Source: a virus. Taken from it: a DNA stretch of 37,190 bases. Location: the IMG/VR virus record IMGVR_UViG_3300043449_002193, positions 1 through 37,190 of that record; one strand, written 5' to 3'. The notes under the pieces are model-generated. The model had not been told where the DNA came from and made no database searches. It saw only the letters and a program-made list of their open reading frames with translations. Below, in pieces: positions 1,986-31,563 of this stretch (the stretch's first letter is position 1; the number at the start of each line of letters is the position of its first letter). The position numbers were made by a program, and so were the translations under genes.

Positions 1986-2765
1986 TTAAGACAAAGTAAT
2001 TTGGTTAAACTTACGTTTGAAAACAGGATTATTAACCCAAGAGCTTAGGTCAGTAGATTCTCCAACAAAGTCGAAGGATTTTCTGCCATTTGCTTTGGAA
2101 GCTGCGTCGTCATTAAGGGTGCTGACATGGCCTATATGCTCAGCGAGAGACGGCGTGTGATAAAACACTGGCAGATTGTTTTGGTAAGCCCAGCGGCCCA
2201 ATACGGCGTCCTTGATGGAGTTCTTAAAATCAGTGTGCGGACAACACCAGAATTCTTGCCCTTTACCGAACGTATCAAAAAATCTATGATTTTGAACTTG
2301 AGGATCAGAAAAAAAGCGTATTACGCTATCTCTATGCATTATAACGGTAACAGTAGACCACGTTTTTTCTTGGTGAATCTCGTGATGGAAGCCTTTGTAG
2401 TTGAAACGATGGTAAATACTAGGAGTGTAAAGAGATAATGATCCAAATGCTCCTAGCTTAGGAATAGCATATTCAAGGTATTTTCTGATGTTTGTTGCAA
2501 ATACAACATCGTCTTCTATCATAAAAAAATAATCACTATCCGGGTTGCTTAATAGCAGTTCGTACAGCCCTGTGGCCCAATTGGTCCAATCACCGTAGAC
2601 CTTTGGTCGATAAACTACTGTAAGGTCTGCACTAGGAATAAAAGAGCCGGGTTCAGCAAATATAGTGCATTTGCTCCACCCGGCTCTCTGTAGTGATTCA
2701 ATTGTTTGCCCTAAATATGAGGCATTTTCCCTAGGGCTGGTAGTTACTCCAACGCACCATTTCAT
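1986..2765 (-). CDS. Glycosyltransferase, GT-A fold, GT54-like
   Basis: The 259-residue protein begins with a GT-A style N-terminus (VGVTTSPR, with a TIESLQRAGW helix). It has an EDD metal-binding motif at residues 84-86 (FFMIEDDVVF) and a late motif EHIGHVSTL resembling the conserved His-Gly-Ser block of MGAT4-type N-acetylglucosaminyltransferases (GT54). It should transfer a sugar from a nucleotide-sugar donor; the acceptor is unknown. I chose the ATG at 2763-2765 because it forms an ATGA overlap with the upstream gene's stop; an ATG seven codons earlier is possible. Its place at the end of a baseplate operon suggests it modifies a virion protein or host surface sugar. Confidence 0.75.
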   Translation of the reverse strand: MKWCVGVTTSPRENASYLGQTIESLQRAGWSKCTIFAEPGSFIPSADLTVVYRPKVYGDWTNWATGLYELLLSNPDSDYFFMIEDDVVFATNIRKYLEYAIPKLGAFGSLSLYTPSIYHRFNYKGFHHEIHQEKTWSTVTVIMHRDSVIRFFSDPQVQNHRFFDTFGKGQEFWCCPHTDFKNSIKDAVLGRWAYQNNLPVFYHTPSLAEHIGHVSTLNDDAASKANGRKSFDFVGESTDLSSWVNNPVFKRKFNQITLS

Positions 2766-3298
2766 GCCAAGGAAACACTCTGCCATTCTTCATCGGAATT
2801 CTTTGGTGAGAATGAAAACTCTTGTTGTTCAGCCTCTGGCAACACGAATTCAAAATACTGATAGCTCAATGTAATAAAATGCTTAAGTATGGTGTCTTCT
2901 GTCGCAGCATAAGACAAATTGCAATTATGATCTAGAACCGTCAGGTTTCTGAAACGGACGTTTGCAATTGCATTTGAGCTTTCATCAGTAAAACTCAAAG
3001 TTACAAGATTGGAATCCAAATCTGTAAATGGACTTTTTTCAGCTTCATGAGTTTGTGATTGTAAGTATTTGATCCACTGATATGCTTCAAATCTTGGAGT
3101 TTCCGCAATAGTGAATCGAATCTTTTTTTCGACATCGTTCCAATTGAGATCCAATACTGACTCATACAATTGCGGGAACAATTTAGGCTTGAATATAAAG
3201 CGATTACAGTGAGGTCTTACTTGATGGTTTACTTTTAAAGTAGGCTCAGTAGACTTGCATTTAGGGGCACTGATGGTTACTTTCTCATGTGTATTCAT
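2762..3298 (-). CDS. Unknown tail-region protein
   Basis: This 178-residue protein has a beta-rich C-terminal half. The pattern of alternating strands (VTLSF, VRFRNLTVLDH, ITLSYQYFEF) is reminiscent of tail-tube-type beta-barrel proteins, but I cannot assign it. An AAAGGA Shine-Dalgarno precedes the ATG. It lies between a structural-type protein and the glycosyltransferase, overlapping the latter by 4 bases, so it is translated in the baseplate operon. The baseplate or tail role is inferred from neighbours. Confidence 0.65.
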   Translation of the reverse strand: MNTHEKVTISAPKCKSTEPTLKVNHQVRPHCNRFIFKPKLFPQLYESVLDLNWNDVEKKIRFTIAETPRFEAYQWIKYLQSQTHEAEKSPFTDLDSNLVTLSFTDESSNAIANVRFRNLTVLDHNCNLSYAATEDTILKHFITLSYQYFEFVLPEAEQQEFSFSPKNSDEEWQSVSLA

Positions 3299-8330: not shown

Positions 8331-8472
8331 GAAATTTTTTCTTTATAAGTTCTTCAAATGCTTTTGCTTCATTGTGCATTCCTAATTTTTCATATTCTTC
8401 AAGAAGTTTACGATACGCATCTTTAGAACGAGGGTTTAATTGGAGATCGGCATATAACTTTGCAAGAATCAT
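8284..8472 (-). CDS. Small TPR-like protein
   Basis: The 62-residue product contains one tetratricopeptide-like hairpin (LNPRSKDAYRKLLEEYEKLG then MHNEAKAFEELIKK). It begins with ATG at 8470-8472 and no obvious Shine-Dalgarno, and runs 47 bases into the glycosyltransferase gene. The matching helical repeats in the downstream protein suggest the two act together, but this is inference. Confidence 0.6.
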   Translation of the reverse strand: MILAKLYADLQLNPRSKDAYRKLLEEYEKLGMHNEAKAFEELIKKKFHADSTHIDQKQSKNN

Positions 8473-8528
8473 ACTACATTACAGAGTTAGGGAAAGGGAT
8501 TTTTCTGAACAAATCAAGCCGTGGTCAT

Positions 8529-8537
8529 TATATAGAT
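8529..8537 (+). promoter_or_regulatory. Candidate late promoter, TATATAGAT
   Basis: TATATAGAT lies about 30 nt before the sigma-factor start at 8567. The longer stretch ATTATATAGATA is identical to that before the HTH gene (19027-19038). No -35 box is apparent, as in T4 late promoters. Confidence 0.5.
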
Positions 8538-8566
8538 ACCTTTTACAGCCCCACTTATGGAGGACT

Positions 8567-9103
8567 ATGGCCAACGAGTATATCAATAACAGAACATTTG
8601 AATCTGTAATTCATGCCTTCCAATTTTTCAAAAGGCAAAAATCAAAATACGAATTGATCATAAATGATTTGAAGGAAACGAATGATCGCAGAGTCGCCAA
8701 ATATGGTGATGAAACTAAAAAACCAGCGTTATTAGAAAGCGAAAGACTGTATAGAGAGGCATGTGAAAGTCATACGGAGTTCCAAAATCAATTGGCCCAC
8801 GCATTTTACATTCTATCAGAGAATATTGCCAATTATGCTAAATTCAGTGGAATTGATATTGATGATGCGATCCAAGAAGGGGTGTTAATTTGTTTTGAAA
8901 AAATAAACAGATTTGATCCAAGAAAAGGCAAAGCTTTCAATTATATGACTACTTGTATTTTAAATCATTTTAGGCAACTTTATCGTAGTGCTCGTAACTA
9001 CAATGAGCTTAAAAAGCGATATCATAATTTTTTGTCAGATAAATTTGAAACAATTATTATTAGAAATGGCAAAGAAATGACATTTTGCGATAAAGGCTAT
9101 TGA
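8567..9103 (+). CDS. T4 gp55-like late-transcription sigma factor
   Basis: From the ATG at 8567, which follows GGAGG, the protein is 178 residues, close to T4 gp55 (185). Sigma70 region 2 is clear: DIDDAIQEGVLICFEKINRF (about 97-116) followed by FDPRKGKAFNYMTTCILNHF (about 116-135) and a basic RQLYRSARNYNELKKR helix. Region 4 is absent, as in gp55, which recognises only a -10-like late promoter. It should redirect host RNA polymerase to virion genes. The frame stays open 195 bases upstream but that part is antisense to the TPR gene and lacks a ribosome site. The TATATAGAT motif upstream suggests autoregulation. Confidence 0.85.
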   Translation: MANEYINNRTFESVIHAFQFFKRQKSKYELIINDLKETNDRRVAKYGDETKKPALLESERLYREACESHTEFQNQLAHAFYILSENIANYAKFSGIDIDDAIQEGVLICFEKINRFDPRKGKAFNYMTTCILNHFRQLYRSARNYNELKKRYHNFLSDKFETIIIRNGKEMTFCDKGY

Positions 9104-9128
9104 TTTTATTACAACCGTGTGGTATAAG
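9100..9128 (+). promoter_or_regulatory. Possible promoter overlapping the sigma gene end
   Basis: TTGATT (9100-9105) and TATAAG (9123-9128) are spaced 17 nt, with TGTGG just before the -10. A start about 7 nt downstream would fall on the start codon region of the next gene. Confidence 0.35.
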
Positions 9129-9131
9129 CAT

Positions 9132-9419
9132 ATGAGTATGACAAAACCAATTATTAATCCTGTAAATGCCATAGAGACTCAAGAGGTAATAGATAATCTA
9201 AGAGAGGCTGGATATTCCGAACTCGTGGATTGTTTACTTGACAACGAAAAAGATTGTTACACCAAAAAAGGTCGTCTTAATAAAAGCAGCACTTGCCGCA
9301 GATTAAATTGGAAGGGCAAAAAATTAGAAGATGCCCTACAAGAAATGCGTGTTTTACTAGCTTCTGAATATGATCTTGAAATTGAAGATCCTGACAATGA
9401 CGAAGAAGAACAAGACTAG
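9132..9419 (+). CDS. Small conserved phage protein of unknown function
   Basis: The product is 95 residues from ATG 9132 (93 from ATG 9138); neither ATG has a good Shine-Dalgarno. A helical domain (IETQEVIDNLREAGYSELVD) is followed by a basic patch with KKGRLNKSSTCRRL and a very acidic C-terminus (DPDNDEEEQD). The KKGRLNKS-type patch suggests nucleic-acid or protein binding; similar short proteins occur in T4-like phages without assigned function. It ends with TAG, then one codon, then TAA. Confidence 0.65.
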   Translation: MSMTKPIINPVNAIETQEVIDNLREAGYSELVDCLLDNEKDCYTKKGRLNKSSTCRRLNWKGKKLEDALQEMRVLLASEYDLEIEDPDNDEEEQD

Positions 9420-9421
9420 TG

Positions 9422-10009
9422 TTAAGCTATATTTGGGGGAACTCCGGGCGATAATGGGCCTCCGGTTGCAGGCAAAGTCTGCGTAGACGTTTTTTGGATG
9501 TATGCTCTAGCATATCTTAATGTAACTTCGCACATGACAATTCCTGTAGTTGTCATGTCGAGGGTTTGGAAATTTATTGCTTGTGGCCAAGCGTCTTCCC
9601 AAACCCATTTTTCTATTGGCGTGCCAATGCCATCATATAAAGTGAGATAGCAAGTTTTGATAAACTTACCACTTTTAGCAGTTTTCCAATCGGCATTTTC
9701 GGGGTCATACATTTCTTGAAGCCATTTGAAGATTGGGTGTTCTTTCAATTTGAGATCCCATAAAGTCAAGCTTACTGGCTTCCAACTGGGTTTGCCCGGA
9801 TAGAAGTAATCCTCTGTAAAATGCTTAACTTCAATTTCTTTGAAATCCAGACTAGGCCGAGCACTTTTTTCGGGAGGTAATGCTGGAATTCCCTTTTCTG
9901 CGGATGTTACATCGCCTACCACCTCAGGAATCTCAAACAGCCATCTAAATTGCCTCTTACAATACTTGCCATCGCCTTCAAGTCCAAATTGTAAACCCAT
10001 CTTAACCAT
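9422..10009 (-). CDS. Tail tube-like protein, paralogue 4 (most divergent)
   Basis: The 195-residue protein shares the gp19-type core of its three upstream neighbours: KRQFRWLFEIP, ARPSLDFKEIE, YPGKPSWKPVSLTL, AWPQAINFQTLD and VTLRYARAY. It lacks their Cys-rich ends and has a Pro-rich tail instead. Tube proteins form the hexameric inner channel of the contractile tail. A GAGGAG site precedes the start. A strong terminator lies between it and paralogue 3, so it should be expressed less or from readthrough. It may be a tube end or completion protein rather than the main subunit. Confidence 0.8.
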   Translation of the reverse strand: MVKMGLQFGLEGDGKYCKRQFRWLFEIPEVVGDVTSAEKGIPALPPEKSARPSLDFKEIEVKHFTEDYFYPGKPSWKPVSLTLWDLKLKEHPIFKWLQEMYDPENADWKTAKSGKFIKTCYLTLYDGIGTPIEKWVWEDAWPQAINFQTLDMTTTGIVMCEVTLRYARAYIQKTSTQTLPATGGPLSPGVPPNIA

Positions 10010-10022
10010 AAAAGCTCCTCAA

Positions 10023-10058
10023 GAAAAAAGGGGTGGCAGGAATATCCTGCCACCCCTT
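10023..10058 (-). terminator. Strong terminator after tail-tube paralogue 3
   Basis: On the minus strand a 12-bp GC-rich stem (10030-10041 with 10045-10056, loop of 3) is followed by six T's (10029-10024). It lies inside the tail operon, before the fourth tube paralogue, so it probably acts as a partial attenuator. Confidence 0.85.
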
Positions 10059-10093
10059 AATTTAGTATCGACCAAACCTAAATGCATTATTTA

Positions 10094-10687
10094 TTATACA
10101 GGTTCTGGATTGTTTTCATTAGTACCACAACCAGTACAGCACGGTGCAATAGTAAATCCGGGGCACTCATTAGTGTACTTAACATCAGAATATCTTAAGG
10201 TAAGTTCAATTGTGCATTCTTCAGAGCTTGAGTAATCGAGGTCACCAAAGTTAATGGCTGTAGGCCACACGTCTTTCATTTCCCAAGTTTCCATCAAGTT
10301 TCCGCAACCATCCCATAATTTCAAAATTGCAGTACAAGTGTAATCCGCACGTACCGCACCCATTTCTAGATTGATTGGGTCGGTAAAGTTGTAGACCGAA
10401 GCCAACCAATTGAATAAAGGTGCAACATCTGCTGTAGCTACGTCAATATATGTTACAGTGAGCGACTCCCAAGATGCTTTGCCCGGAATCCAAGTCTTAG
10501 CATTTAAGAAGTTAACTTCTGTTTCTTCGACAGAAAGGTTGGGCCTTCCCGCAGTTTTAACATAATGTTTGGGGACGGATTGAGAACCACAGATGTCAAA
10601 CAACTCCAAGGTGTAACGAAACTTTCTCTTGAAGACAAGGTTTTTAAATCCAAGTTGTCCAATCCCCATTGGGATCTTTTCAGCCAT
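10094..10687 (-). CDS. Tail tube-like protein, paralogue 3
   Basis: The 197-residue protein has the gp19-type pattern: FKRKFRYTLELF, GRPNLSVEETEVNFLNAKTW, IPGKASWESLTVTYIDVA, WPTAINFGDLDYSS and ELTLRYSDVKY. The C-terminus carries a CCTGCG cluster. It should belong to the tail tube. AGGAG precedes the ATG. It is very close to paralogue 2, implying tandem duplication, and ends with tandem TAA TAA. Confidence 0.85.
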   Translation of the reverse strand: MAEKIPMGIGQLGFKNLVFKRKFRYTLELFDICGSQSVPKHYVKTAGRPNLSVEETEVNFLNAKTWIPGKASWESLTVTYIDVATADVAPLFNWLASVYNFTDPINLEMGAVRADYTCTAILKLWDGCGNLMETWEMKDVWPTAINFGDLDYSSSEECTIELTLRYSDVKYTNECPGFTIAPCCTGCGTNENNPEPV

Positions 10688-10708
10688 TTCTAACTCCTAT
10701 CTGTCAAA

Positions 10709-11311
10709 TTAGATGTATGTCTTGTTTGCATACTTCACAGTAGTTCCACAACCACCGCAGCAAGGCTCTGGTTGGTAATCTGGGCAGTAGCTTCTGTACT
10801 TAACATCAGAATAACGAAGGGTTAGTTCGATGGTAGCAATGTCTGATGAACTGTAATCCAAATCGCCAAAGTTAATTGCGGTTGGGAATACTCTTTGAAG
10901 TTGCCACATTTCAATCAATGTGCCGCAACCATCGTACATGCTTAATAAGCCAGTTGCATCCCAGTCTCTTTTCTCGCCTTGGCGAAGATTGACTGGATCG
11001 GTGAAGTCATAAACTGTTGCAAGCCAGTTCCATAGTGAACGCATCTCGGTGTGTGCTACGTCGAGATATGTTACAGTAATTGTTTCCCAAGATGCTTTAC
11101 CCGGAATATAGGTTTTAGCATTGAGGTGATTAATTTCAGTTTCTTCGATTGAGAGGTTTGGGCGTGAAGCAACGCTAACGAAGTGCTCTGGCACTACGTT
11201 CTTTTCGTTATCACAGAAACCAAGAATTTCGAATGTCCAACGAAACTTTCGCTTGAACACCATATCTGGTTGCCCAATAACTCCAATCCCCATTGGTTTT
11301 TTGTCAGCCAT
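10709..11311 (-). CDS. Tail tube-like protein, paralogue 2
   Basis: The 200-residue protein matches paralogue 3 throughout: FKRKFRWTFEIL, SRPNLSIEETEINHLNAKTY, IPGKASWETITVTYLDVA, FPTAINFGDLDYSSSD, and a CCGGCG end. AGGAG lies before the ATG. The spacing to paralogue 3 is only 21 bases. Two nearly equal copies argue that both are used, perhaps in one mixed tube or at different tube levels. Confidence 0.85.
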   Translation of the reverse strand: MADKKPMGIGVIGQPDMVFKRKFRWTFEILGFCDNEKNVVPEHFVSVASRPNLSIEETEINHLNAKTYIPGKASWETITVTYLDVAHTEMRSLWNWLATVYDFTDPVNLRQGEKRDWDATGLLSMYDGCGTLIEMWQLQRVFPTAINFGDLDYSSSDIATIELTLRYSDVKYRSYCPDYQPEPCCGGCGTTVKYANKTYI

Positions 11312-11334
11312 TTTGTTCTCCTAAATTTGGTTTG

Positions 11335-11883
11335 TTAGCAACCTATACATACGCCTACAGCTTGTGGTCCACACCAGTTTCTATAGTTAACTTCTGAATA
11401 TCTTAATGTAACGTCGATGGTAAGCTCTGCTGAATCACTGTAATCAAGGTCGCCAAAATTTACTGATTGAGGCCAAACTGATCCAAGTAACCAACTTTCT
11501 AAAGGCTTTCCACAACCATCATAAACTTGAAGCAATGCTGTAGCATTCCAACCAATCTTTTCTGTCTGTGGTAAATCAATCAAAGGATTTTGTGTGTTGA
11601 AGTTGTATACAGAAGCAATCCAACTATACAAAGCACCTACATCCTGAGCGGCAACATCAATGTATGTAACACTTAATGGTTGCCATTTGCCTTTGCCGGG
11701 AATCCATGTCGTTGCATTCAGGAAGTTAATTTCCGATTCATCAATATCAAGCTGTGGTCTTGCGGCCACTTTTACATAAGACGCAGGAACGGGACCAACA
11801 GGGGTCTGAAGCTCCAATGTCCAGCGAAACTTTCTCTTAATAATGATGTTAGGAGCACCAAGCCTCCCAATTCCCATTGCCAT
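11335..11883 (-). CDS. Tail tube-like protein, paralogue 1
   Basis: The 182-residue protein lies directly after the sheath gene, the usual place for the main tube protein in T4-like phages. It shares IKRKFRWTLELQ, ARPQLDIDESEINFLNATTW, IPGKGKWQPLSVTYIDVA and WPQSVNFGDLDYSDS with paralogues 2 and 3, and ends CIGC. Its gene order makes it the best candidate for the main tube subunit, but expression level cannot be read from sequence. Two starts, Met1 and Met3, are possible; GAGG precedes them. Confidence 0.85.
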   Translation of the reverse strand: MAMGIGRLGAPNIIIKRKFRWTLELQTPVGPVPASYVKVAARPQLDIDESEINFLNATTWIPGKGKWQPLSVTYIDVAAQDVGALYSWIASVYNFNTQNPLIDLPQTEKIGWNATALLQVYDGCGKPLESWLLGSVWPQSVNFGDLDYSDSAELTIDVTLRYSEVNYRNWCGPQAVGVCIGC

Positions 11884-11914
11884 TTCTTACCTCTTCATTT
11901 CATAAGAACTAAGA

Positions 11915-11938
11915 GCATCCGGGGCTAACCCCGGATGC
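11915..11938. terminator. Hairpin between sheath and first tube gene
   Basis: GCATCCGGGG (11915-11924) pairs perfectly with CCCCGGATGC (11929-11938). On the minus strand no T-run follows, so it is more likely an mRNA end-protecting or processing hairpin than a full terminator. Confidence 0.6.
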
Positions 11939-11957
11939 TGTAGTCATTTTTTATTTC

Positions 11958-14312
11958 TTAGAACGTATCGGCGTTCTCACCGAAGCTTCCAGTTCTATGG
12001 ATGCTGAACTCGATAAAGATGAACTCAGCAGCACGAATTGGTTGAACACCGATTCGAGCACGCATTTCATTTCTATCAATTACGTCTGGCGTATTGAGTT
12101 CGGTATCGCACTTCACACGGAAGTCATTAACACCACGACCGACTTGAATCTCGGACAGAATTGAAGTTGCGATTCTTACAAACTTCTGTCTGAGAATGTC
12201 GTCATGAGGATCGAATAGCAACTGGCGGCTAGCCGCACGGATTCTCTTTTCGATAACGAACATCAAACGACGGACGTTAACACGATCAAGAGCGGTTGGA
12301 CGACGTTGCAGAGTCTTTTGACCCCAGATAACGAATCCATCGAAATCAACAAACTGAACGATTGGGTTGATGGCATTTCTGTAACCATACATCAAGTCAC
12401 GCTCTTCGAGCGTTGGACGACTAAACACGTCGGTGATGTTTGGTACGTTACCACGGTTAACACCAGCAGGAGCAAACCAAGGTGCTGACAATTGATCTGA
12501 ACGAGCAATCGTCGCCATGACAGAACCTGAAGGAGGAGCCCAAATATCAACTCTATTGAAGTTGTCACGAATCTTGACCCAAGGCCAGTACAGAGCACCG
12601 AAATCACTGTCAAAACGAGTGGTGTTCAGTGGGTGTGATCCATTCTGCCAGTGAACAATTTCCTTCACTGTGAGACCGAATGGTGGGTCGATGATTGCCA
12701 AGCAATCCATACGGACGTTTTGGCACAAATCCAACAGTGCGGTTACAACGGCGGTGCTGCTGTGACCCGGAACAGCGATCAAGTCAAGATCGATTTGCTC
12801 AGGCTCAGATAGAGCGTACATACCAGAGAAACCAACTCTATTTCCGATAATAAGTTCATCTTGTGTATCTGGATCTGAAGGAATACCGTCAGAACCGCCT
12901 TCAAGACGGTAAGTTCCATCAAGAGGAGGTGCAGAGTTAGCAGTATTGTCAGAAACACGAATCCAGTCTGATACGAGAGACAAGAATGTCTCAACATAAA
13001 ATCTGGAGTTTTCATCTTTGGTTAGACCGCCCCATGATTCAACTTCGACACCATTGTTGAAAACTTGTAGGATGAAGTTGCCTTCACGAATGTTATTTTC
13101 AATCACAACTTGTGTTGCATTACCATCAATACCAGCCGAATCGGCGTTGAGTGTAAAGGTAACAGCACCAGTTGAGTTTGTATCACCATTGATACGACCA
13201 TAAGTGTCTTCGGCTGGATCGCCGGAAGTACCAATTGGGCTATCGCCAAGCTTGGTCACACTTTCTAAGCCGAACAAGGCAGCGGCAGTGCTATCTGGCT
13301 TGATCAAAAGACGAGCGTCACGACCGTGGTGCAGGGTGCGGAAAGCGAGGTTATCACCATCTGCATATGCTTCCCAACCACCGGGTAGGTCGCCACCGTT
13401 TTCTACCAACTGGCTGTTAATTTCGGTAACAACTTGAGCAACGGTAGATTCAGTGCCTTCAAGATCAGCTAGATCAATTATTTGCACGACATTGTCAATA
13501 AGTACATTGTCAGTACCATCAACAACAATTTGAATATTAAGATCGCTTAAACCTGCAAAGTCATATTCGCCAGCAGATTGATAGGATGCTGGGTAACGGT
13601 CATTGCTTCCTGTAATCTCAGCTTGGGTCATGCCCGTGCCAAGGCCAGTCACGTTTCCGTCAATCACTGCACCACCGTACATTGCATCCTGAACGGAAAC
13701 GAATTCCAACTCACTATCAGGACCAAAGGCCCAAGTGGTTTGAACGCCGATATAATCATCGCCCGTATCAGTTACAAATTCGATGCCGTCGATCTGACCG
13801 TCCAATTGCAAATTGAGTTCTTCAGCAAGTTGGGCTGCGGTGTAGGTTCCAGCCAAAACAACCAAGGTTTTGGACATCAACACACCATTAAGTCTCCAAC
13901 GGAAGAACGAATCGTTTGCAAACGTATACGGCCCTTGTTCTTGCGACATCACGACGATACGACCACCAGCAGATGGAACGTCAACAGAGGCTGTCTCTGC
14001 TTTCTCGTCGCTAACATTATCTTCATCAGCAACACGAACGACATAAAGTTCGTTTGCCACTAACAGGTATTGCTCGGCAGCATAAACCAGATAAGGATCT
14101 CCGCTCTCAGGGTGCGGATACCCGAACACAGTATTCAACTGACGCTGGGTTGAAATCAAAGTTGGGACGTTAATCGGTCCCTTACTTGCGAATCCAACTA
14201 AGCCAGCACGGTGAAAGGATTGTTCGGGAGCTATGAAGCTCAAATCCTTCTCGGTGATTCTGACGCTTGGCGAAATCGTGTTAGATGGCGGAAATCCCCT
14301 TAGAATAGCCAT
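11958..14312 (-). CDS. Contractile tail sheath protein (gp18-like)
   Basis: At 784 residues this is the size of a large phage sheath protein (T4 gp18 is 659). The N-terminus has the sheath signature (SPSVRITEKDLSF, then RAGLVGFASKGPINVPTLI). The C-terminal domain carries the conserved NAINPIVQFVDFDGFVIWGQ block and ends PIRAAEFIFIEFSIHRTG, typical of sheath inter-subunit contacts. The central part (about 100-480) is a variable surface insertion. The sheath surrounds the tube and contracts on infection. GGGAG precedes the ATG. It follows the small 74-residue gene by 3 bases. Confidence 0.95.
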   Translation of the reverse strand: MAILRGFPPSNTISPSVRITEKDLSFIAPEQSFHRAGLVGFASKGPINVPTLISTQRQLNTVFGYPHPESGDPYLVYAAEQYLLVANELYVVRVADEDNVSDEKAETASVDVPSAGGRIVVMSQEQGPYTFANDSFFRWRLNGVLMSKTLVVLAGTYTAAQLAEELNLQLDGQIDGIEFVTDTGDDYIGVQTTWAFGPDSELEFVSVQDAMYGGAVIDGNVTGLGTGMTQAEITGSNDRYPASYQSAGEYDFAGLSDLNIQIVVDGTDNVLIDNVVQIIDLADLEGTESTVAQVVTEINSQLVENGGDLPGGWEAYADGDNLAFRTLHHGRDARLLIKPDSTAAALFGLESVTKLGDSPIGTSGDPAEDTYGRINGDTNSTGAVTFTLNADSAGIDGNATQVVIENNIREGNFILQVFNNGVEVESWGGLTKDENSRFYVETFLSLVSDWIRVSDNTANSAPPLDGTYRLEGGSDGIPSDPDTQDELIIGNRVGFSGMYALSEPEQIDLDLIAVPGHSSTAVVTALLDLCQNVRMDCLAIIDPPFGLTVKEIVHWQNGSHPLNTTRFDSDFGALYWPWVKIRDNFNRVDIWAPPSGSVMATIARSDQLSAPWFAPAGVNRGNVPNITDVFSRPTLEERDLMYGYRNAINPIVQFVDFDGFVIWGQKTLQRRPTALDRVNVRRLMFVIEKRIRAASRQLLFDPHDDILRQKFVRIATSILSEIQVGRGVNDFRVKCDTELNTPDVIDRNEMRARIGVQPIRAAEFIFIEFSIHRTGSFGENADTF

Positions 14313-14315
14313 GTC

Positions 14316-14540
14316 TTAATCTCCCTTACGAATTTCATTGTTTGGTACATATTTAGTCGAGATCAGGCCCATCTTCTCAACACGTTCTATGTATTCAGTT
14401 ACCAACTCATCCTCGATTAGCCTGACATTGTTTCCCTTGCCAACGCCGGGAACAATCAAGGTTGTGAAAGCACGGGGAGCCTTCCTCGATCTCACCACTA
14501 GCTGCACTGGGCTTTTTTGCTTGTTCTTAATCTCAATCAT
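14316..14540 (-). CDS. Small conserved protein preceding the sheath gene
   Basis: The 74-residue basic protein (IEIKNKQKSPVQLVVRSRK near the start; IEDELVTEYIERVEKMGLI near the end) looks like a compact beta domain plus helix. Short proteins of this kind are found just upstream of sheath genes in related large phages, with no function I know. It starts in an ATGA overlap with the gp15-like gene, with GGAAG upstream, and lies 3 bases before the sheath, so all three are coupled. Confidence 0.75.
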   Translation of the reverse strand: MIEIKNKQKSPVQLVVRSRKAPRAFTTLIVPGVGKGNNVRLIEDELVTEYIERVEKMGLISTKYVPNNEIRKGD

Positions 14541-15553
14541 TCTTCCAATTCCTTTACTGCTTGCTCTAACCGAGTCAGTACTTCGGTAATATCTTCCTCG
14601 TTAGGTGAGTCGGTGACTTCGATCCGAGTTTTAAGCACTGCTTTTCGTCTAACAATTGGCTGAGACACAAAGGACTCTGCCGTCAAACTAAATTGATACT
14701 TAAATACTCGAACAGCTTTGTCTCCGGGCTCGTAATCGACGTTATTAGCTATACTTGTTAGCTTAACTCCGATCTCCCACGAGATTCCCTTTACCCGTAT
14801 GTATGCTATCGGAGAGAATTTTGTTAGTATTTGAGTGAGAATCTGATTCATGTCCTCTTCATACATAGTCCAAGCATATAAGGTGTAGCCAATATCTACT
14901 GGAATTCCCCTAGTAACGCCAAAAACTGTGTCTCTTTCGAATCTTTCGCTTGTTGTAAATCCCGGCTTCCAATCATTCCTTGGCTCTCTTAAGTAATCAA
15001 TTGCTTTATGATAGATGTACCTATCTTGGTTAAAATTGAATTCTGAAGAGTGAATTGCCAATATTGGCAACCTTATACGATCAACAACAAGACTTTCGTC
15101 TTTTCTCATATTCTCTTGAAGTATGTATGCCACTGCTCTTTCTTGCGTTCCCCAGATAATAGGAATATTGTGTGCCTTGCCAGCCTCATCTAATACGACT
15201 ATATCCTTAAACAATTCTTTCACCGCTTCATCAGTTCCACGAATAGATTTGGCGTATCGATATACGACATTTCTATTAGGCGGAGACATCCCTTGTTCGT
15301 TGATAATGTGACCCGTTTGTTGTGGGTCGCATAATGCAGCAGCACCATTTCCGAGTTTGCTTTGCGTAGCATCCTCTAACCAAGACATGTCTTGGTTGCC
15401 AACATCATTTTGACTTTCGTAAAATGGTTTTTTGTTAATGGTGCCAGAACTCGAAATAGTTTTCCCATCCCGACAATAGTCTGGTGCTGGGTCAATATTG
15501 AGATCGTTTATAAATCCCGGTTCATTGCAAGGGTTAAGAGTTGGTTCGCTCAT
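14537..15553 (-). CDS. T4 gp15-like tail terminator / sheath-stabilising protein
   Basis: The 338-residue protein contains the pattern of T4 tail-completion proteins: VTRGIPVDIGYTLYAWTMYE, EDMNQILTQILTKFSPIAYI and YEPGDKAVRVFKYQFSLTAE (about residues 212-300). The N-terminal 110 residues are low-complexity, and the last 35 are charged and helical. gp15 caps the tube and sheath where the tail meets the neck. AGGAA precedes the start. Its place upstream of the sheath supports the call. It is longer than T4 gp15 (272). Confidence 0.8.
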   Translation of the reverse strand: MSEPTLNPCNEPGFINDLNIDPAPDYCRDGKTISSSGTINKKPFYESQNDVGNQDMSWLEDATQSKLGNGAAALCDPQQTGHIINEQGMSPPNRNVVYRYAKSIRGTDEAVKELFKDIVVLDEAGKAHNIPIIWGTQERAVAYILQENMRKDESLVVDRIRLPILAIHSSEFNFNQDRYIYHKAIDYLREPRNDWKPGFTTSERFERDTVFGVTRGIPVDIGYTLYAWTMYEEDMNQILTQILTKFSPIAYIRVKGISWEIGVKLTSIANNVDYEPGDKAVRVFKYQFSLTAESFVSQPIVRRKAVLKTRIEVTDSPNEEDITEVLTRLEQAVKELEE

Positions 15554-17305: not shown

Positions 17306-18547
17306 ATGCTCAACCATTCAGTTTCCGAATCAGGGCTTCCTGTTTTCCATATTCAAATGCCTGATGCAGCGATCTGCAAAGTTATGATCGTTGCAAACTG
17401 CGGTTCTTCTCAAGAAGAAAATGATTCTTGGGGCGTGGCCCACTTTCTTGAGCATTTGTGCTTCCAAGGCACTCCGACCAAAAACAAACATCAAGTGTCT
17501 CGGGAGCAAGCTTTAGTTGGCTCTTATAATGCCTACACCAACTATTTCAATACTGCTTACCACTTCGATTCACTCAATGAAGATTTCGAGCGGGGATTGA
17601 CGCTTCTTAAGGAGGCAGTATTTGACTCAAATTTCCCAGAACAAGAATTTGAAAAGGAAAAGAATGTCATTGTTGAAGAGTGGAGAATGTATGATAACTA
17701 CCCCACAGAACATTTTTGGGATTTCATTGCAGAGAAATGTTTCGGAGACACAGAAGGACATCCTATTATTGGAACGGAAGAATCTATCCGAAGCATGAAC
17801 CCTGAAAAGCTTCATCGCTTTAGAAACAAATGGTATGGACGACAAAACATGTTTGTTGTAGTGGTTGGCAACCTTGATTTTGAAAGAGTCATGAAGGCGG
17901 TCAACGAAATTCTTCCAGCAGCCCAATCCGTTGAGAAAGTTTCCCTGTGTCTCAATGACTTATTGACAAGTAGTGACAGGCACTCATTAGAAACTGACCG
18001 ATTTGAACAAGCTGCATTCGGATTGGTGCAAAAATGGGTATCTGCACAACAAAACATGGAGAGAAATTATATTCCCAGCTTTTTCGTCTATGCCCTAAAC
18101 AAGTACATGTATGAATATATTCGTGATGACCTTGGTTTGTGCTATGGAGTCTCTGTAAGTGGGTTTGGCCATTACGAAAACAATTATTCAGTCATTTCTA
18201 TGTTGACCAATAATGGTTATCTTGAAAAAGCTGAAACGGAATTGATTAATTTATTCAATCGGATCAAGTCAGAAGGATTTCCACTTGAGCTTTTTGAAAT
18301 TTGTAAGAAGCAATATCTTTACAATAAGATAAAGGGGCTACAAAGTGTTGGCGGAGTAGCAAGCACCATAGTCAGCGGTGTCTCGGCTTCAAGCGATCCA
18401 AATTGGTTTGTCAACGAAGGGCACAAGGCTATGGATATTGATGCCATCAAGAAGTGTGCAGCAAGTCTCAAGCCAAGTAATTTACAAGATTTTGCTCAAA
18501 GTCATCTTAGTGATGGGCTCAAATTCACAATGGTATCTACAAAGTAG
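17306..18547 (+). CDS. M16-family zinc metallopeptidase (insulinase/processing-peptidase type)
   Basis: The 413-residue protein has the inverted zinc motif HxxEH at residues 46-50 (VAHFLEHLCFQGT) and the distal glutamate region at about 121-126 (VIVEEW), spaced as in M16 peptidases. A second-half M16 C-domain is present, with a YIRDDLGLCYGVSVSG-like block near residues 272-287. Its length fits the single-chain M16B class. These enzymes cut peptides enclosed in a chamber. It has its own promoter, a palindrome and a strong terminator, so it is an independent unit. All catalytic residues are present, so activity is likely; the substrate is unknown. It is unusual in a phage. Confidence 0.9.
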   Translation: MLNHSVSESGLPVFHIQMPDAAICKVMIVANCGSSQEENDSWGVAHFLEHLCFQGTPTKNKHQVSREQALVGSYNAYTNYFNTAYHFDSLNEDFERGLTLLKEAVFDSNFPEQEFEKEKNVIVEEWRMYDNYPTEHFWDFIAEKCFGDTEGHPIIGTEESIRSMNPEKLHRFRNKWYGRQNMFVVVVGNLDFERVMKAVNEILPAAQSVEKVSLCLNDLLTSSDRHSLETDRFEQAAFGLVQKWVSAQQNMERNYIPSFFVYALNKYMYEYIRDDLGLCYGVSVSGFGHYENNYSVISMLTNNGYLEKAETELINLFNRIKSEGFPLELFEICKKQYLYNKIKGLQSVGGVASTIVSGVSASSDPNWFVNEGHKAMDIDAIKKCAASLKPSNLQDFAQSHLSDGLKFTMVSTK

Positions 18548-25900: not shown

Positions 25901-26484
25901 GATTTGCTCCCATATAAACAGTTTTGATTGATATAAGTCCAAACATTTGGACTTACCATGTTGCAAGCTTCTTCATTTGCTTCTGTGATTGCAGTTCTGA
26001 CTTTAGTTGAACTTAGATTGTAGTCAACTTTTATCAATTTGTGTGGATCTACATTGTACCAAGTTGCAGTTGACTCTTCTCCTGTTCGTGTAATGACAAT
26101 AAAGGGATTGTATAACACAATCCATTGCCCACGATCCCATGATTCGAGAATGACATTTGCATTATCCATGCCAATCACAATGTGAAAATCAATGTCTTGA
26201 AACGAGGCTTTAAGACCCAACATAGTTTCATACATCGACCCCGAATGTTGTTTGTCAATTTCCCACGAACAAAGCTTTACAAAAGGCATTTTTTGGCAAG
26301 CCAATGCAAGCATGGCCCATCTATGATAAATGGGAGTGGGGTCTTTTCCAAATTTATGATTCCAACACGGCATGAGCCAAATATCAAATCCTGTTTCATC
26401 ATGAATCTTTTGACAGATGAATTCATGAGCCAAGGTTACAGGATCGAATGCTCCGCCGAACAAAGCCACTTGTTTTTTGTTCAT
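25888..26484 (-). CDS. nadD: NadD-like nicotinate-nucleotide adenylyltransferase
   Basis: The 198-residue protein has the nucleotidylyltransferase N-terminal motif GGAFDP (residues 10-15) followed by TLAH (17-20), and the C-terminal SSTKVR motif (158-163) that binds ATP phosphates. It should convert nicotinate mononucleotide plus ATP to deamido-NAD; specificity for the nicotinate over the nicotinamide form is inferred from its neighbours. The first His of HxGH is Thr, as in the wider T/HxGH superfamily, and the Gly is Ala, a point to test. It overlaps the NAD synthetase stop (ATGA), which fixes the start at 26484. Confidence 0.85.
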   Translation of the reverse strand: MNKKQVALFGGAFDPVTLAHEFICQKIHDETGFDIWLMPCWNHKFGKDPTPIYHRWAMLALACQKMPFVKLCSWEIDKQHSGSMYETMLGLKASFQDIDFHIVIGMDNANVILESWDRGQWIVLYNPFIVITRTGEESTATWYNVDPHKLIKVDYNLSSTKVRTAITEANEEACNMVSPNVWTYINQNCLYGSKSCNL

Positions 26485-28481
26485 TTTGGCAACCACACAC
26501 TAGGATCAGCATCAGATGGCATTCGCCAGTCTCCACGAGGCGACAGGCTTACAGAGCCAACTTTTGGTCCATCGGGCACACAATTTCGTTTGAATTGCTG
26601 GCTGAAAAATCTGCGTAAAAAAGTGTTCAAGGTAGTTTCAATTACGTATTTTGAATACCCTTTTGAAAACTGTGCATGTTCCGCAAGATAAAAAAGCTTT
26701 TCAGGAGAAAAACCAAACTTGATAAAGTTTGCCAAGAAGAAATCGTGCAGTTCATAAGGTCCAATGCTGTCTTCTGTTGATTGTTCAATTTCGCCTGATT
26801 TACTTGGTGGCAAAAGCTCAGGAGAGATTGTGGTTTCAAGAATACTGATGAGTGCTTTTTGAAGATTGGAATCAGCAATTGTTTCTGTATCGGTTGCAAA
26901 TTGCACAACTGAACGAACCAAGGTTTTCGGCACTGAACAATTGACATTGTACATGCTCATGTGGTCGCCATTGTAAGTACACCAACCAAGAGCAAGTTCA
27001 GAGAGATCGCCTGTTCCTAAAACAAATCCACGACTCATGAGAATTTTTGTTCGCTCTCTGGCCTGAACATTTTCAAAGACCAAATCTTGTCTTTGCGATA
27101 TCGGAACCGACTGCAAAGCTTTTTCGAATTCATCAAGAGGCAAATTGAAATCGACGATTCCAAAAGGTTTGTGATTTAACGCCTTGAACGTAGCGAGACA
27201 AATAGGTCGAATGTCAATGGTTTCTTGTGAAATGCCAAGCTCTGTCATTAGCGAAAGAGCATTATTTTTGGTTTTGGAAGTGGTTCCAAAACCGGGCAGG
27301 GTGATGCCGTGAATTTTCTTTATATCAACCCCAGCAGATTTGAAAGCCTTTACTGCCACCAACAAAGCTAGCGTAGAATCTAATCCACCGGAAACACCAA
27401 TATAGATGTCGCCGAAACTTGTGGCTTCCAGTCTTTTTAGAAGGCCAGCACATTGAATTCCAAAAACTTCTGCACAACGCCTTTTCCTCAAGGCTTGATC
27501 CTTTGGAACAAACGGTGAACTATCAATTTCTCGTTTAAGGTTTAGAGTGATATTTTGTGAAGAAGTGGTTACAAGATCGATAAAACGGAATTGTCGTTCA
27601 ATCAATCTATTTGAATCTCCAAAACTGGTAATTTTAAGACGTTCATTTTGAAGCCTTTCTACATCGATATCGACGCTTGTATGCCAGCCAGAATCGCAAA
27701 CAAAGCCGTTGTTTCCTACACGATCTGTTTCGGCAAGCACTTGACCATTTTCAGCAATCAAACAATGTCCTCCAAATACAAGATCGCTCGTAGACTCGGA
27801 TGGCCCGGCAGAGGCGTAAGCATACGCAGAAATACACCTAGCAGATTGATTTTTCACCAAATCCACTCGATATTCATTTTTGCCTACTGTTTCATTGGAT
27901 GCCGATAAATTGACAATCAGATTGGCCCCTCTGATTGAGGCGAAACTACTTGGAGGAATCGGCATCCATAAATCCTCACAGATTTCCGCAAAAACGGACA
28001 AGGGGCCAAAATTGAAAATTAAATCAATACCAAAAGGCACCATGTCGTCTTGAGCAAACAAAACTTCTTTTGGTTCATCTCCATTAGCTGCCCGAAACCA
28101 TCTGCTTTCGTAGAATTCCGAATAGTTTGGAATATTTGTCTTGGGGACAATCCCCTGAACCTTGCCGTTTTGAATTGCAAACGCACAATTGAAGAGTTCG
28201 TTCCCAACCACAAATGGAGCACCTACAAATACCAATTGGTCATTGCGTTTGGTGTGCTCGGCAATTTCCAAAATTGCATTTGTGGTGTGTTTATGCAGTA
28301 TTGATTGTCGAAATAGATCCCCGCAAGTGTAACCAGTAACACACAATTCTGGAAATACCACCACATCTGCATCTTTGTTTTGAGCAAGATGCAAAATGAT
28401 TTGTGAAGCATTATTTGCTGGATTTCCAACAAATACCTTGGGGGAGCAAACAGCTACTCGTGCAAATCCAAACAGGTTCAT
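26481..28481 (-). CDS. nadE: Glutamine-dependent NAD+ synthetase
   Basis: The 666-residue protein has the two-domain layout and length of bacterial glutamine-dependent NadE. The nitrilase-type glutaminase domain shows the full triad: Glu45 (FPELCVTGY), Lys114 (GIVPKTNIPNY) and Cys168 (AEICEDLW). The synthetase domain has the PP-loop SGGLDS at 364-369 and LGTGDLSELALGWCTYNGDH further on. It turns deamido-NAD into NAD+ using glutamine and ATP. The ATG at 28481 lies 7 nt after the upstream stop; an in-frame TTG six codons earlier is less likely. All catalytic residues are present, so it should be active. Confidence 0.95.
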   Translation of the reverse strand: MNLFGFARVAVCSPKVFVGNPANNASQIILHLAQNKDADVVVFPELCVTGYTCGDLFRQSILHKHTTNAILEIAEHTKRNDQLVFVGAPFVVGNELFNCAFAIQNGKVQGIVPKTNIPNYSEFYESRWFRAANGDEPKEVLFAQDDMVPFGIDLIFNFGPLSVFAEICEDLWMPIPPSSFASIRGANLIVNLSASNETVGKNEYRVDLVKNQSARCISAYAYASAGPSESTSDLVFGGHCLIAENGQVLAETDRVGNNGFVCDSGWHTSVDIDVERLQNERLKITSFGDSNRLIERQFRFIDLVTTSSQNITLNLKREIDSSPFVPKDQALRKRRCAEVFGIQCAGLLKRLEATSFGDIYIGVSGGLDSTLALLVAVKAFKSAGVDIKKIHGITLPGFGTTSKTKNNALSLMTELGISQETIDIRPICLATFKALNHKPFGIVDFNLPLDEFEKALQSVPISQRQDLVFENVQARERTKILMSRGFVLGTGDLSELALGWCTYNGDHMSMYNVNCSVPKTLVRSVVQFATDTETIADSNLQKALISILETTISPELLPPSKSGEIEQSTEDSIGPYELHDFFLANFIKFGFSPEKLFYLAEHAQFSKGYSKYVIETTLNTFLRRFFSQQFKRNCVPDGPKVGSVSLSPRGDWRMPSDADPSVWLPK

Positions 28482-28488
28482 GGTATTT

Positions 28489-29652
28489 TTAGGAATCAAG
28501 AGGAGTTTTGAAGAAAGTCCAACGAGCTACACGCAGAGCATCTTTATCACCAATTGCCTTGGTGGGAGAATCACTTATTTTGACAACGGGAACATTATTA
28601 CACTCAGCCAATTTAATGACCATATTAAGTGCAGGAGAGTTCTCGAAGTCGTTAGTGAAGTTTGTACCAATTCCGAAAGCTGTATTAATTTTGCCTGCAC
28701 AACATTTGGCAATCTCCACAGCCTTCTCTGGATTGAGCCCATCGCTGAAGACGATTGTTTTCGTGATAGGTGCAATATTCAATTTTTGGTAGGCGGCTAT
28801 GGTTTTTGCTGCAAATTCAAGAGGATTACCTGAATCATGCCTCACGCCGTCAAACAATCGTGCCAGTACGTCGTCGAAATCTTCAAAAAAGATATCAGAC
28901 TGAAAAGTGTCTGTGAGAGCAGTTCCCAATCGACCCTTGTAAACCCTTTGCCATATTTTCAAAGCTTCCCGATTGGCATGTCTCAAACTTTCCAAAGCTG
29001 ATATTCCCATGATCCATTCATGTGCCATTGTTCCCAATGGACGTATATTGTGCTTATGAGCCAAGTGAACATTGCTCGTGCCTTGAAAAGTTGAAAACGC
29101 TTTCAGGACTTCAACAGCTAAATCTTGAACGGCAAAGCTGCGACGACGACGAGTGCCGAAATCTGTGAAACTGAACCCATCAAGTGTTTTGCCTTTTTTA
29201 TGCAATTTTTGAGCTTGTGTGCCTAAATCAGTGTCCCAATTAGTATCACAATGCAGAAAAAACAATTCAGAAATCAAGGCCATCAAAGGAACCTCCCAAA
29301 GGATGGTGCGTTCCCATGTTCCTGCGATTTCAAGTTTAAGTTCACCTCTATGAACTTCCCATTGTACTTCATTGGGATCGAAACGATAATTTTTCAAGTA
29401 TTGAATGTAATCTTCTCCAAGCCACGGCAAGGTCTCCCGTAGCCAAGAACATTGATCTTCGGTCATGATAAGATATTGCATCTCATCAAGTTGTGTGGCA
29501 AATGCTTGTGCAAAATTGGAATTAAACTTCCCTTCTGGACGACGATTATTGAAGATATATCGCACAGGAACATTCTGTCGATAATTCAAGACCGCCTTTT
29601 GCATGGTGAGCTTGTAAAGATCGGTATCAAGAATGGATCGAATAATTGTCAT
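28489..29652 (-). CDS. pncB: Nicotinate phosphoribosyltransferase
   Basis: From the ATG at 29650-29652 the protein is 387 residues, similar to E. coli PncB. It carries its signature blocks: FGTRRRR (165-171), QGTSNVHLAHKH (190-201), LGTMAHEWIMG (206-216), DGVRHDSGNP (268-277) and FSDGLNPEKA, FGIGTNFTND further on. It joins nicotinate and phosphoribosyl pyrophosphate to give nicotinate mononucleotide, the first step of the Preiss-Handler route. The frame extends upstream into the tRNA but that part is not coding. It lies 36 nt beyond the tRNA in the same operon. Confidence 0.95.
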   Translation of the reverse strand: MTIIRSILDTDLYKLTMQKAVLNYRQNVPVRYIFNNRRPEGKFNSNFAQAFATQLDEMQYLIMTEDQCSWLRETLPWLGEDYIQYLKNYRFDPNEVQWEVHRGELKLEIAGTWERTILWEVPLMALISELFFLHCDTNWDTDLGTQAQKLHKKGKTLDGFSFTDFGTRRRRSFAVQDLAVEVLKAFSTFQGTSNVHLAHKHNIRPLGTMAHEWIMGISALESLRHANREALKIWQRVYKGRLGTALTDTFQSDIFFEDFDDVLARLFDGVRHDSGNPLEFAAKTIAAYQKLNIAPITKTIVFSDGLNPEKAVEIAKCCAGKINTAFGIGTNFTNDFENSPALNMVIKLAECNNVPVVKISDSPTKAIGDKDALRVARWTFFKTPLDS

Positions 29653-29688
29653 GTTGAAGTCTTTCAACTGTGAACGGAAGAGTGGAAA

Positions 29689-29761
29689 TGCATCCTGTGG
29701 GACTCGAACCCACAACTGGCAAATTTAGAGTTTGCCGCTCTACCAATTGAGCTAAGGATGC
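29689..29761 (-). tRNA. Amber-suppressor-type tRNA, anticodon CUA
   Basis: The minus strand folds as a full cloverleaf: acceptor GCATCCT/AGGATGC, D stem GCTC/GAGC with AATTGGTA loop, anticodon stem GCAAA/TTTGC, T stem GTGGG/CCCAC with TTCGAGT loop. The anticodon loop is CTCTAAA, so U33 is present and the anticodon is CUA, reading UAG. The variable loop is short (5 nt), which excludes Leu, Ser and bacterial Tyr types. The discriminator is A and no CCA is encoded. The loop differs from the usual tRNA-Trp loop CTCCAAA by one base, as in the known E. coli Su7 suppressor. It lies 5 nt after the VWA-like gene stop and is probably cut from the operon transcript. Confidence 0.9.
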
Positions 29762-30520: not shown

Positions 30521-30742
30521 TTAATCATCTTCGCTGTCATAATCATCGTCATCGCCGTAATTGAATGGATCACCACCGTACTTCCACCAATTGGCCGGAT
30601 CTCTCAAGTCTTTCTCTCTTTCTGCTTGGCCAGTTTTTTTAGCAAGAGATCCAAGCATTAAAGTGTTAAAGATAAACGTGAGAATGCTTCCGGCTATTAT
30701 TCCTAGCAAGAAAACAAGCAAATCATTGTTCTGACTTTCCAT
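30521..30742 (-). CDS. Small single-pass membrane protein
   Basis: The 73-residue product has one transmembrane helix (about residues 8-30, LLVFLLGIIAGSILTFIF) and a soluble tail. The tail turns from basic (KKTGQAEREKD) to very acidic at the end (GDDDDYDSEDD). It overlaps the end of the Thg1-like gene by 20 bases and has no strong ribosome site of its own, so it depends on translation of that gene. Function is unknown. The 97 bases after it towards the VWA gene's upstream side (30424-30520) show only a weak GCCA/TGGC hairpin. Confidence 0.65.
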   Translation of the reverse strand: MESQNNDLLVFLLGIIAGSILTFIFNTLMLGSLAKKTGQAEREKDLRDPANWWKYGGDPFNYGDDDDYDSEDD

Positions 30743-31562
30743 TTGTAATTGAATCCTTCAATTCTGGCACCGCTCCATGTAGTAAAACTTCCGTCTTATT
30801 AGCAATTTTTGTAAAGACAGGAAGAGCCTCTGCTCGGACAATCGTCCTACGAATGTCCAAATCTGGCTTTTGTCGTGCGTGGTGTTTTTCAGGAAGAGAT
30901 GCAAGTTCTTCCACCGTGTAGGCACGATATAATTGATGCCTTCTTACATAAGTACCACGCTTGAAAAATTCAGGATAATTATTCCAATTGATTCCTTTAG
31001 CAAAAAGCATTTCTTGAAGATGCGATACATTCTTTTTAAAACACTCCTTGTCACTGTAGACAGATCTTGCAGCCATTTGAACAGAGTTGCGAGTTGCATC
31101 TTGTTCTCGCCAAATAAAACAATTAACAGCTTCGATTTCGTTAGGGACTTGAAAGACTCGACAATCAAAGACTGGCAATTTGTCTGCTTTCTCAGGCAGA
31201 AAATCTGGAAGTCTTTTGTTGAAAAAAGCCGTGCCAGTTGCAGCTAAGACAGATGCCATCTTTTGGAGTTTTCCACCAAAGAAAATCTTGGTGTCCCATT
31301 CCTGTGCAAGCCACACCAGACTTATCTCATCTGACTGAGTATAGCCGCAACGAGCATCAGTTTCTTGAACTAAGAACTTGGTTGTTTCAACCATAAGTTC
31401 AGAAAGTCTGTCATCGTATGGTCTTTTCAATCCTCTAGTAAAGCTGTGAAAAGCTCTACCATCAAGACGAGCAATTACTGGTGCCATAGGCATGAAAGTT
31501 TGATCAGTGAAACGGCCTTCATACCATTTCATTCTGTCGCCAAGTTTAGTTTTGTCGCTCAT
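30723..31562 (-). CDS. thg1: Thg1-like 3'-5' RNA polymerase (tRNAHis guanylyltransferase family)
   Basis: The 279-residue protein shows the family's catalytic blocks: ARLDGRAFHSFTRGL with Asp34, and GYTQSDEISLVW with Asp78-Glu79. These are the carboxylates that hold the two metals of the reversed-polymerase active site. The size matches eukaryotic Thg1. Bacterial and phage Thg1-like proteins add nucleotides to the 5' end of truncated tRNAs using a template, so tRNA 5'-end repair is the likely role. The RNA ligase gene ends 1 base upstream, strongly suggesting joint action. All key residues are present. Confidence 0.9.
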   Translation of the reverse strand: MSDKTKLGDRMKWYEGRFTDQTFMPMAPVIARLDGRAFHSFTRGLKRPYDDRLSELMVETTKFLVQETDARCGYTQSDEISLVWLAQEWDTKIFFGGKLQKMASVLAATGTAFFNKRLPDFLPEKADKLPVFDCRVFQVPNEIEAVNCFIWREQDATRNSVQMAARSVYSDKECFKKNVSHLQEMLFAKGINWNNYPEFFKRGTYVRRHQLYRAYTVEELASLPEKHHARQKPDLDIRRTIVRAEALPVFTKIANKTEVLLHGAVPELKDSITNGKSEQ

Positions 31563-31563
31563 A

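Follow-up and report, generated by a model that had tools for sequence, protein, structure and literature searches.

Four tandem tail tube genes behind a single sheath gene in a lineage of giant phages

Introduction

In most descriptions, a tail tube consists of hundreds of copies of a single protein. Bacteriophage T4 has, as the original prediction stated, one main tube gene (gp19, PF06841) located right after the sheath gene, with the refinement that gp3 shares the PHROG of gp19 and that gp54 is annotated as 'tail tube'; minor tube-fold paralogues, placed in T4 at the tube ends, are therefore normal in myophages.

Several giant phages carry more than one tube homologue. Three tandem 'tail tube' proteins are recorded behind the sheath in RaK2 and GAP32, two in Atu_ph07, and three 'structural proteins' behind the sheath in 121Q. 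The virion proteome of phAPEC6, which forms one species with 121Q, contains the adjacent proteins gp275c (25.07 kDa), gp274c (28.76 kDa) and gp273c (40.42 kDa), encoded near the sheath gp277c (PMC7247149). The masses computed for the three tandem tube homologues of 121Q (552-554) equal these values and, the two phages being one species, all three RaK2-type tube homologues were therefore detected in phAPEC6 virions, with 2, 3 and 7 unique peptides (PMC7247149). Virion proteomics of CBB found CBB_205 and CBB_207 but not CBB_206 (PMC5259590). Two tube homologues (gp179/gp180) also follow the sheath in phage G, whose authors left open whether both form the tube (PMC8570332). Among other tubes, that of SPP1 contains two forms of its protein in a ratio of 3:1 (PMC8718954), the eCIS (Alg1/Alg5, Afp1/Afp5, Pvc1/Pvc5) combine one major tube gene with a tube-fold initiator, identified as Alg5 in AlgoCIS (PMC8894135), and the Hcp2-Hcp3 heterohexamer of the Bacteroides T6SS mixes tube-fold paralogues in one ring, although in a secretion system.

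Open-access full-text literature on tandem, second or multiple tube proteins yielded nothing on the lineage described below; multi-tube loci are already known from phage G and RaK2, and it is the four-gene set and its expression layout that look unreported. A giant-phage lineage that keeps three diverged major-type tube genes and a fourth would break the picture of the one-protein tube, would pose the problem of matching a single sheath to several kinds of tube subunit, and bears on phage G and the RaK2-type phages with their two or three tube homologues.

The tube gene cluster

The window, that is, the whole stretch of DNA that was analysed, is a virus record of 37,190 bases. Its tail module is transcribed from the minus strand in the order sheath, A, B, C, D, with the four tube genes spanning positions 9422-11883:

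14537..15553, minus strand: gp15-like tail sheath stabiliser, 338 aa (PF16724, 4.3e-17), upstream in the same module
11958..14312, minus strand: tail sheath, 784 aa (PF04984, 1.5e-15), directly upstream of A
11335..11883, minus strand: tube paralogue A, 182 aa, the copy next to the sheath gene; Cys 124, 171, 179 and 182; PHROG 4542, 6.5e-20
10709..11311, minus strand: tube paralogue B, 200 aa, with the strongest conservation among the four; Cys 33, 129, 176, 184, 185 and 188; PF06841 above the cut-off
10094..10687, minus strand: tube paralogue C, 197 aa, the copy nearest to T4 gp19 and to X, the single main tube gene of two-copy phages; PHROG 4542, 4.9e-29
9422..10009, minus strand: tube paralogue D, 195 aa, divergent and without a Cys tail; PHROG 4542, 9.5e-20; putative low-copy end ring

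All four open reading frames are intact and each is preceded by a Shine-Dalgarno-like sequence. The common run of motifs predicted for four adjacent genes was confirmed with small variants ([IFC]KR[KQ]FR[WY], RPxLxxxExE, PGKxxW and [IV]NFxxLD), and 40 alignment columns are identical across the four proteins. Identity to A is 51% for B, 55% for C and 30% for D, and A, B and C share 51-60% in pairwise comparison. The similarity of A, B, C and D is far beyond chance because all four match PHROG 4542 ('tail tube protein') with E values of 1e-19 to 5e-29; PF06841, the family of T4 gp19, was matched above the cut-off by B and weakly by A, C and D. Against close relatives, dN/dS of all four genes was well below 1 wherever synonymous sites were unsaturated, and A-D are therefore maintained genes. 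Decay of spare tube copies was ruled out by the open reading frames, the ribosome-binding sites and the low dN/dS where measurable, and a recent duplication or an assembly artefact by the 51-60% identity of A, B and C, each of which is monophyletic in many contigs. As a genomic feature the four-gene set is well supported, and it is moderately surprising. No cellular homologues of the tube genes were found in genome_contigs, and no Rfam match was found at positions 9000-12500.

The locus resembles T4 in the tube fold, in the tube gene right after the sheath and, if D is an end ring, in having minor tube-fold proteins at the tube ends, and differs from it in having three major-type genes and D in tandem, with Cys tails, in place of one major tube gene. 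The sheath-then-tube order is also found in relatives. PF04984 matched once per genome in seven of the nine records searched and not at all in the other two; with at most one match per record, extra sheath genes corresponding to the extra tube genes were ruled out.

Distribution and descent

The viral-contig scan gave 507 relatives, on contigs of up to 459 kb and on LR756511 (595 kb), and 80 loci were kept. Among contigs in which the cluster is flanked on each side by 800 bases or more, some of them near-duplicates, four tube copies were found in 30, three in 3 and two in 21. In the tree, A, B and C form three separate clades in fixed gene order, the same order being kept in every complete four-copy contig, while the D clade, separate and older, includes the last gene of the two- and three-copy contigs (support 100), which makes a two-gene state of X and D the simplest ancestor. 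Such a pair resembles the major tube and initiator of the eCIS, which differ from the present locus in having only one major tube gene.

RaK2, 121Q, phAPEC6, GAP32 and CBB (PHROG 4542/13438) are likewise giant phages with a sheath followed by three tandem tube homologues, the last one divergent as D is here, yet by the tree their duplication was independent, their genes are three and not four, the third encodes 364 aa, and each protein has only 2-3 Cys. One-to-one orthology of A-D with the RaK2-type paralogues was rejected, as the tree sets them apart, with a support for the split of only 37. Phage G, likened here by the position of its tube genes behind the sheath, has two genes.

Rates of divergence differ strongly among the copies. 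Over 26 four-copy gene sets, mean pairwise identity was 79% for B, 70% for C, 61% for A and 56% for D, against 82% for the sheath where available. Identity was higher for B than for A in 321 of 325 pairs and higher than for D in all 325, and B and C surpassed A and D in conservation in no fewer than 95% of genome pairs. Such differences between A, B and C speak against a simple tube to which each would contribute an equal share.

Predicted fold

AlphaFold (AF2) models were obtained for B (pLDDT 81.7, 62 sequences) and D (pLDDT 70.1, 31 sequences), and the order of structural elements is the same in both. The B model matched T4 gp19 (Foldseek 6.5e-9) and the tube chains of PVC (best VIA Z 14.6), and the D model matched PVC, AFP and Hcp tubes (best Foldseek 6.2e-8, best VIA Z 10.5). 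The predicted structures thus support a gp19/Pvc1/Hcp tube fold for B and D, and homology supports the same fold for A and C. Profile alignment to T4 gp19 (hhalign) gave 2.3e-6 for C, 8e-5 for X, 1.5e-4 for B, 0.007 for D and 0.02 for A, and the profile of the single-copy tube X scored C highest among A, B and C. Fixed differences among A, B and C concentrate in loops and in the long beta-hairpin. No significant match was obtained between D and the single T4 sequences gp3, gp48 and gp54 (hhalign), a weak test as such proteins diverge fast, and PHROG 230, the gp48 family, was matched nowhere, controls included, which is thus no evidence of its absence.

Hairpins and expression layout

Two hairpins were located in the gaps of the cluster:

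10028..10058, minus strand: intrinsic-terminator-like hairpin in the C/D gap, a 14-bp stem followed by a T-run (z -4.6)
11914..11939, minus strand: GC-rich hairpin without a clear T-run in the sheath/A gap (z -6.1)

Of 54 distinct contigs, 43 carry a terminator-like hairpin, defined as a consensus match, in the gap that precedes D (shuffled mean 0.2), and the remaining 11 have none by the criteria used. The 67 gaps that separate main-tube genes from one another, which are short (median 23 bases versus 81 before D), contain no such hairpin. The stem sequences of the hairpins before D are unrelated between contigs. A likeness is seen in the record of phage SP-15, where a terminator is annotated right after the single tube gene. 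From this layout, A, B and C would lie in one expression block and D would be expressed at a reduced level, which predicts abundant A-C and scarce D.

The sheath/A hairpin, mostly without a T-run, was present in 30 of the 32 contigs counted as four-copy, seven of which are truncated or without D, versus 3 of 23 two-copy contigs. It is frequent where three or four copies are present and rare where there are two, and its sequence differs each time; because four-copy contigs share ancestry, the pattern may be one evolutionary event. It may act in processing, stability or partial termination.

Arrangement of the tube

The four genes would encode the inner tube of one contractile tail, and this tube is probably built of more than one repeated protein. 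On balance, we consider it somewhat probable that the tube is a composite, in which the products of a duplicated X (A, B and C) make up the major tube and a scarce D an end ring; the presence of all four proteins in the virion, their copy ratios and positions and the role of their cysteines are inferred, the system being known here from its genes. It would have arisen from an older two-gene system of a major subunit (X) and a divergent minor subunit (D), in which X was duplicated and the resulting A, B and C took on specialised roles. These three would be translated from a shared transcript block and polymerise together, forming the greater part of the tube inside a sheath of one type; the main share probably comes from B and C, which are the best conserved and the most similar to gp19, and A may take a more specialised place. 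D, behind its terminator-like hairpin, would be made in smaller amounts and supply a single end ring or a few of them, in the manner of AlgoCIS Alg5 (baseplate end) or T4 gp3 (head end).

The heteropolymeric tube of the original prediction is accordingly retained as plausible for A, B and C in view of their age, their separate conservation and their place in one putative block, and of the detection of all three RaK2-type paralogues in phAPEC6 virions. The special end ring that it also proposed fits D, which belongs to a separate old clade, lies behind a terminator-like hairpin and is without the Cys tail. Points against the composite tube are that CBB proteomics found two of three RaK2-type paralogues, that the RaK2-type copies arose independently by the tree, and that D has no sequence match to T4 gp3, gp48 or gp54.

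Alternatively, A, B and C might each form their own homohexameric rings at different levels of the tail, for example A at one end and B and C in the shaft. The fast divergence of A and D compared with the slow divergence of B and C, and the gp19 similarity, highest in C and B, are consistent with such a segmented tube, as are the fibre rings found at three levels along the sheath of phAPEC6 (PMC7247149), which show that tails need not be uniform. A level-specific positioning signal was not found in the sequence, however, and the product of a single sheath gene would have to fit all ring types. This arrangement appears rather unlikely, and nothing that was tested supports the use at different tail levels, as originally suggested, over mixed rings.

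Mixed rings, in which each hexamer would combine A, B and C (e.g. two of each) to give an obligate heteromeric tube with D as end ring, are suggested by the number of main paralogues, three for a six-fold ring, by their common putative expression block and by the copy number, which is mostly two or four and rarely three in contigs with flanks. Moreover, the loops and long beta-hairpin in which A, B and C differ are elements of the type through which neighbours touch in the Milano tube (PMC10811340), and a tube-fold heterohexamer has been solved (B. fragilis Hcp2-Hcp3, 9vne). Strongly different rates (B, C and A in descending order of identity) are nevertheless unexpected for equivalent neighbours, and we regard mixed rings as unlikely. 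A more specific version, which we regard as quite unlikely, is an obligate three-component tube with A, B and C at a fixed ratio in mixed hexamers and D as a separate end ring, in which the total of A, B and C would be balanced against the one sheath protein by the hairpin that the four-copy lineage gained between sheath and A.

That one paralogue makes the tube and the other main copies are alternatives for other conditions or have non-tube roles is improbable. In its favour, CBB proteomics missed one of three RaK2-type paralogues, and T4 gp3 is a case of a tube paralogue acting as terminator. Against it, A, B and C are under purifying selection, have ribosome-binding sites, share one putative block and keep a constant order in complete four-copy contigs, and phAPEC6 virions yielded all three RaK2-type paralogues.

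Conserved cysteines

The Cys-rich C-terminal ends noticed on three copies (A, CIGC; B, CCGGCG; C, CCTGCG), with the fourth different, proved to be conserved in relatives and absent from D. At least three tail Cys were found in 19/19 sequences of X, 20/21 of A, 19/21 of B, 20/21 of C and 0/31 of D; X, A, B and C have in common a DGC motif and about three tail Cys. The DGC motif is frequent in D as well (25/31) and is present in short tube-like paralogues whose tails are not similar, and need therefore not pair with the tail.

The cross-links proposed for these ends would be inter-ring or inter-subunit disulfides locking the tube, on the model of phage Milano with its disulfide cross-links in sheath and tube alike (PMC10811340). 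The DGC and tail Cys common to A, B, C and X, and the fully disulfide-linked Milano tube, speak for this role; the occurrence of DGC in D and the short paralogues speaks against it, as do the CxxC spacing, which fits a metal site equally well, and the sheath, which contains 3 Cys in 784 aa, whereas Milano has a Cys network in both sheath and tube. Disulfides are a possible but somewhat doubtful explanation, and a Cys4 metal site formed by DGC and three tail Cys, with CxxC, is equally possible; of the original proposal, the conserved tail Cys hold and the cross-linking is one of two options.

Neighbouring genes

A further candidate tube-like protein lies in the baseplate region:

2762..3298, minus strand: protein E, 178 aa, with a faint, degenerate tube-like domain, downstream of the baseplate hub gene

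The family profile of E matched the short tube paralogues of relatives (hhalign 94.8%, 5.6e-8) and gave no clear match to the A-D profiles (hhalign); judged by these alignments, E may be a further baseplate part with the tube fold. In the relatives, extra short tube-like domains lie about 8 kb downstream (L086, 15002-15886; L087, 12912-13562; L089, 12315-13064; L090, 10328-11559), two of them fused within one open reading frame in L086, and the motif DGCG is kept in all short tube-like domains of these four.

On the opposite strand, a sigma-factor-like gene (8372-9103, plus strand) adjoins D, and an open reading frame of similar size is found at the same place in relatives. An M16 (insulinase-family) peptidase gene lies near the tail module (17306-18547, plus strand). 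Adjacent NAD synthetase-like and nicotinamide phosphoribosyltransferase-like genes (26481-29715, minus strand) suggest NAD salvage, and a tRNA-His guanylyltransferase-like gene adjoins an RNA ligase gene (30723-32682, minus strand).
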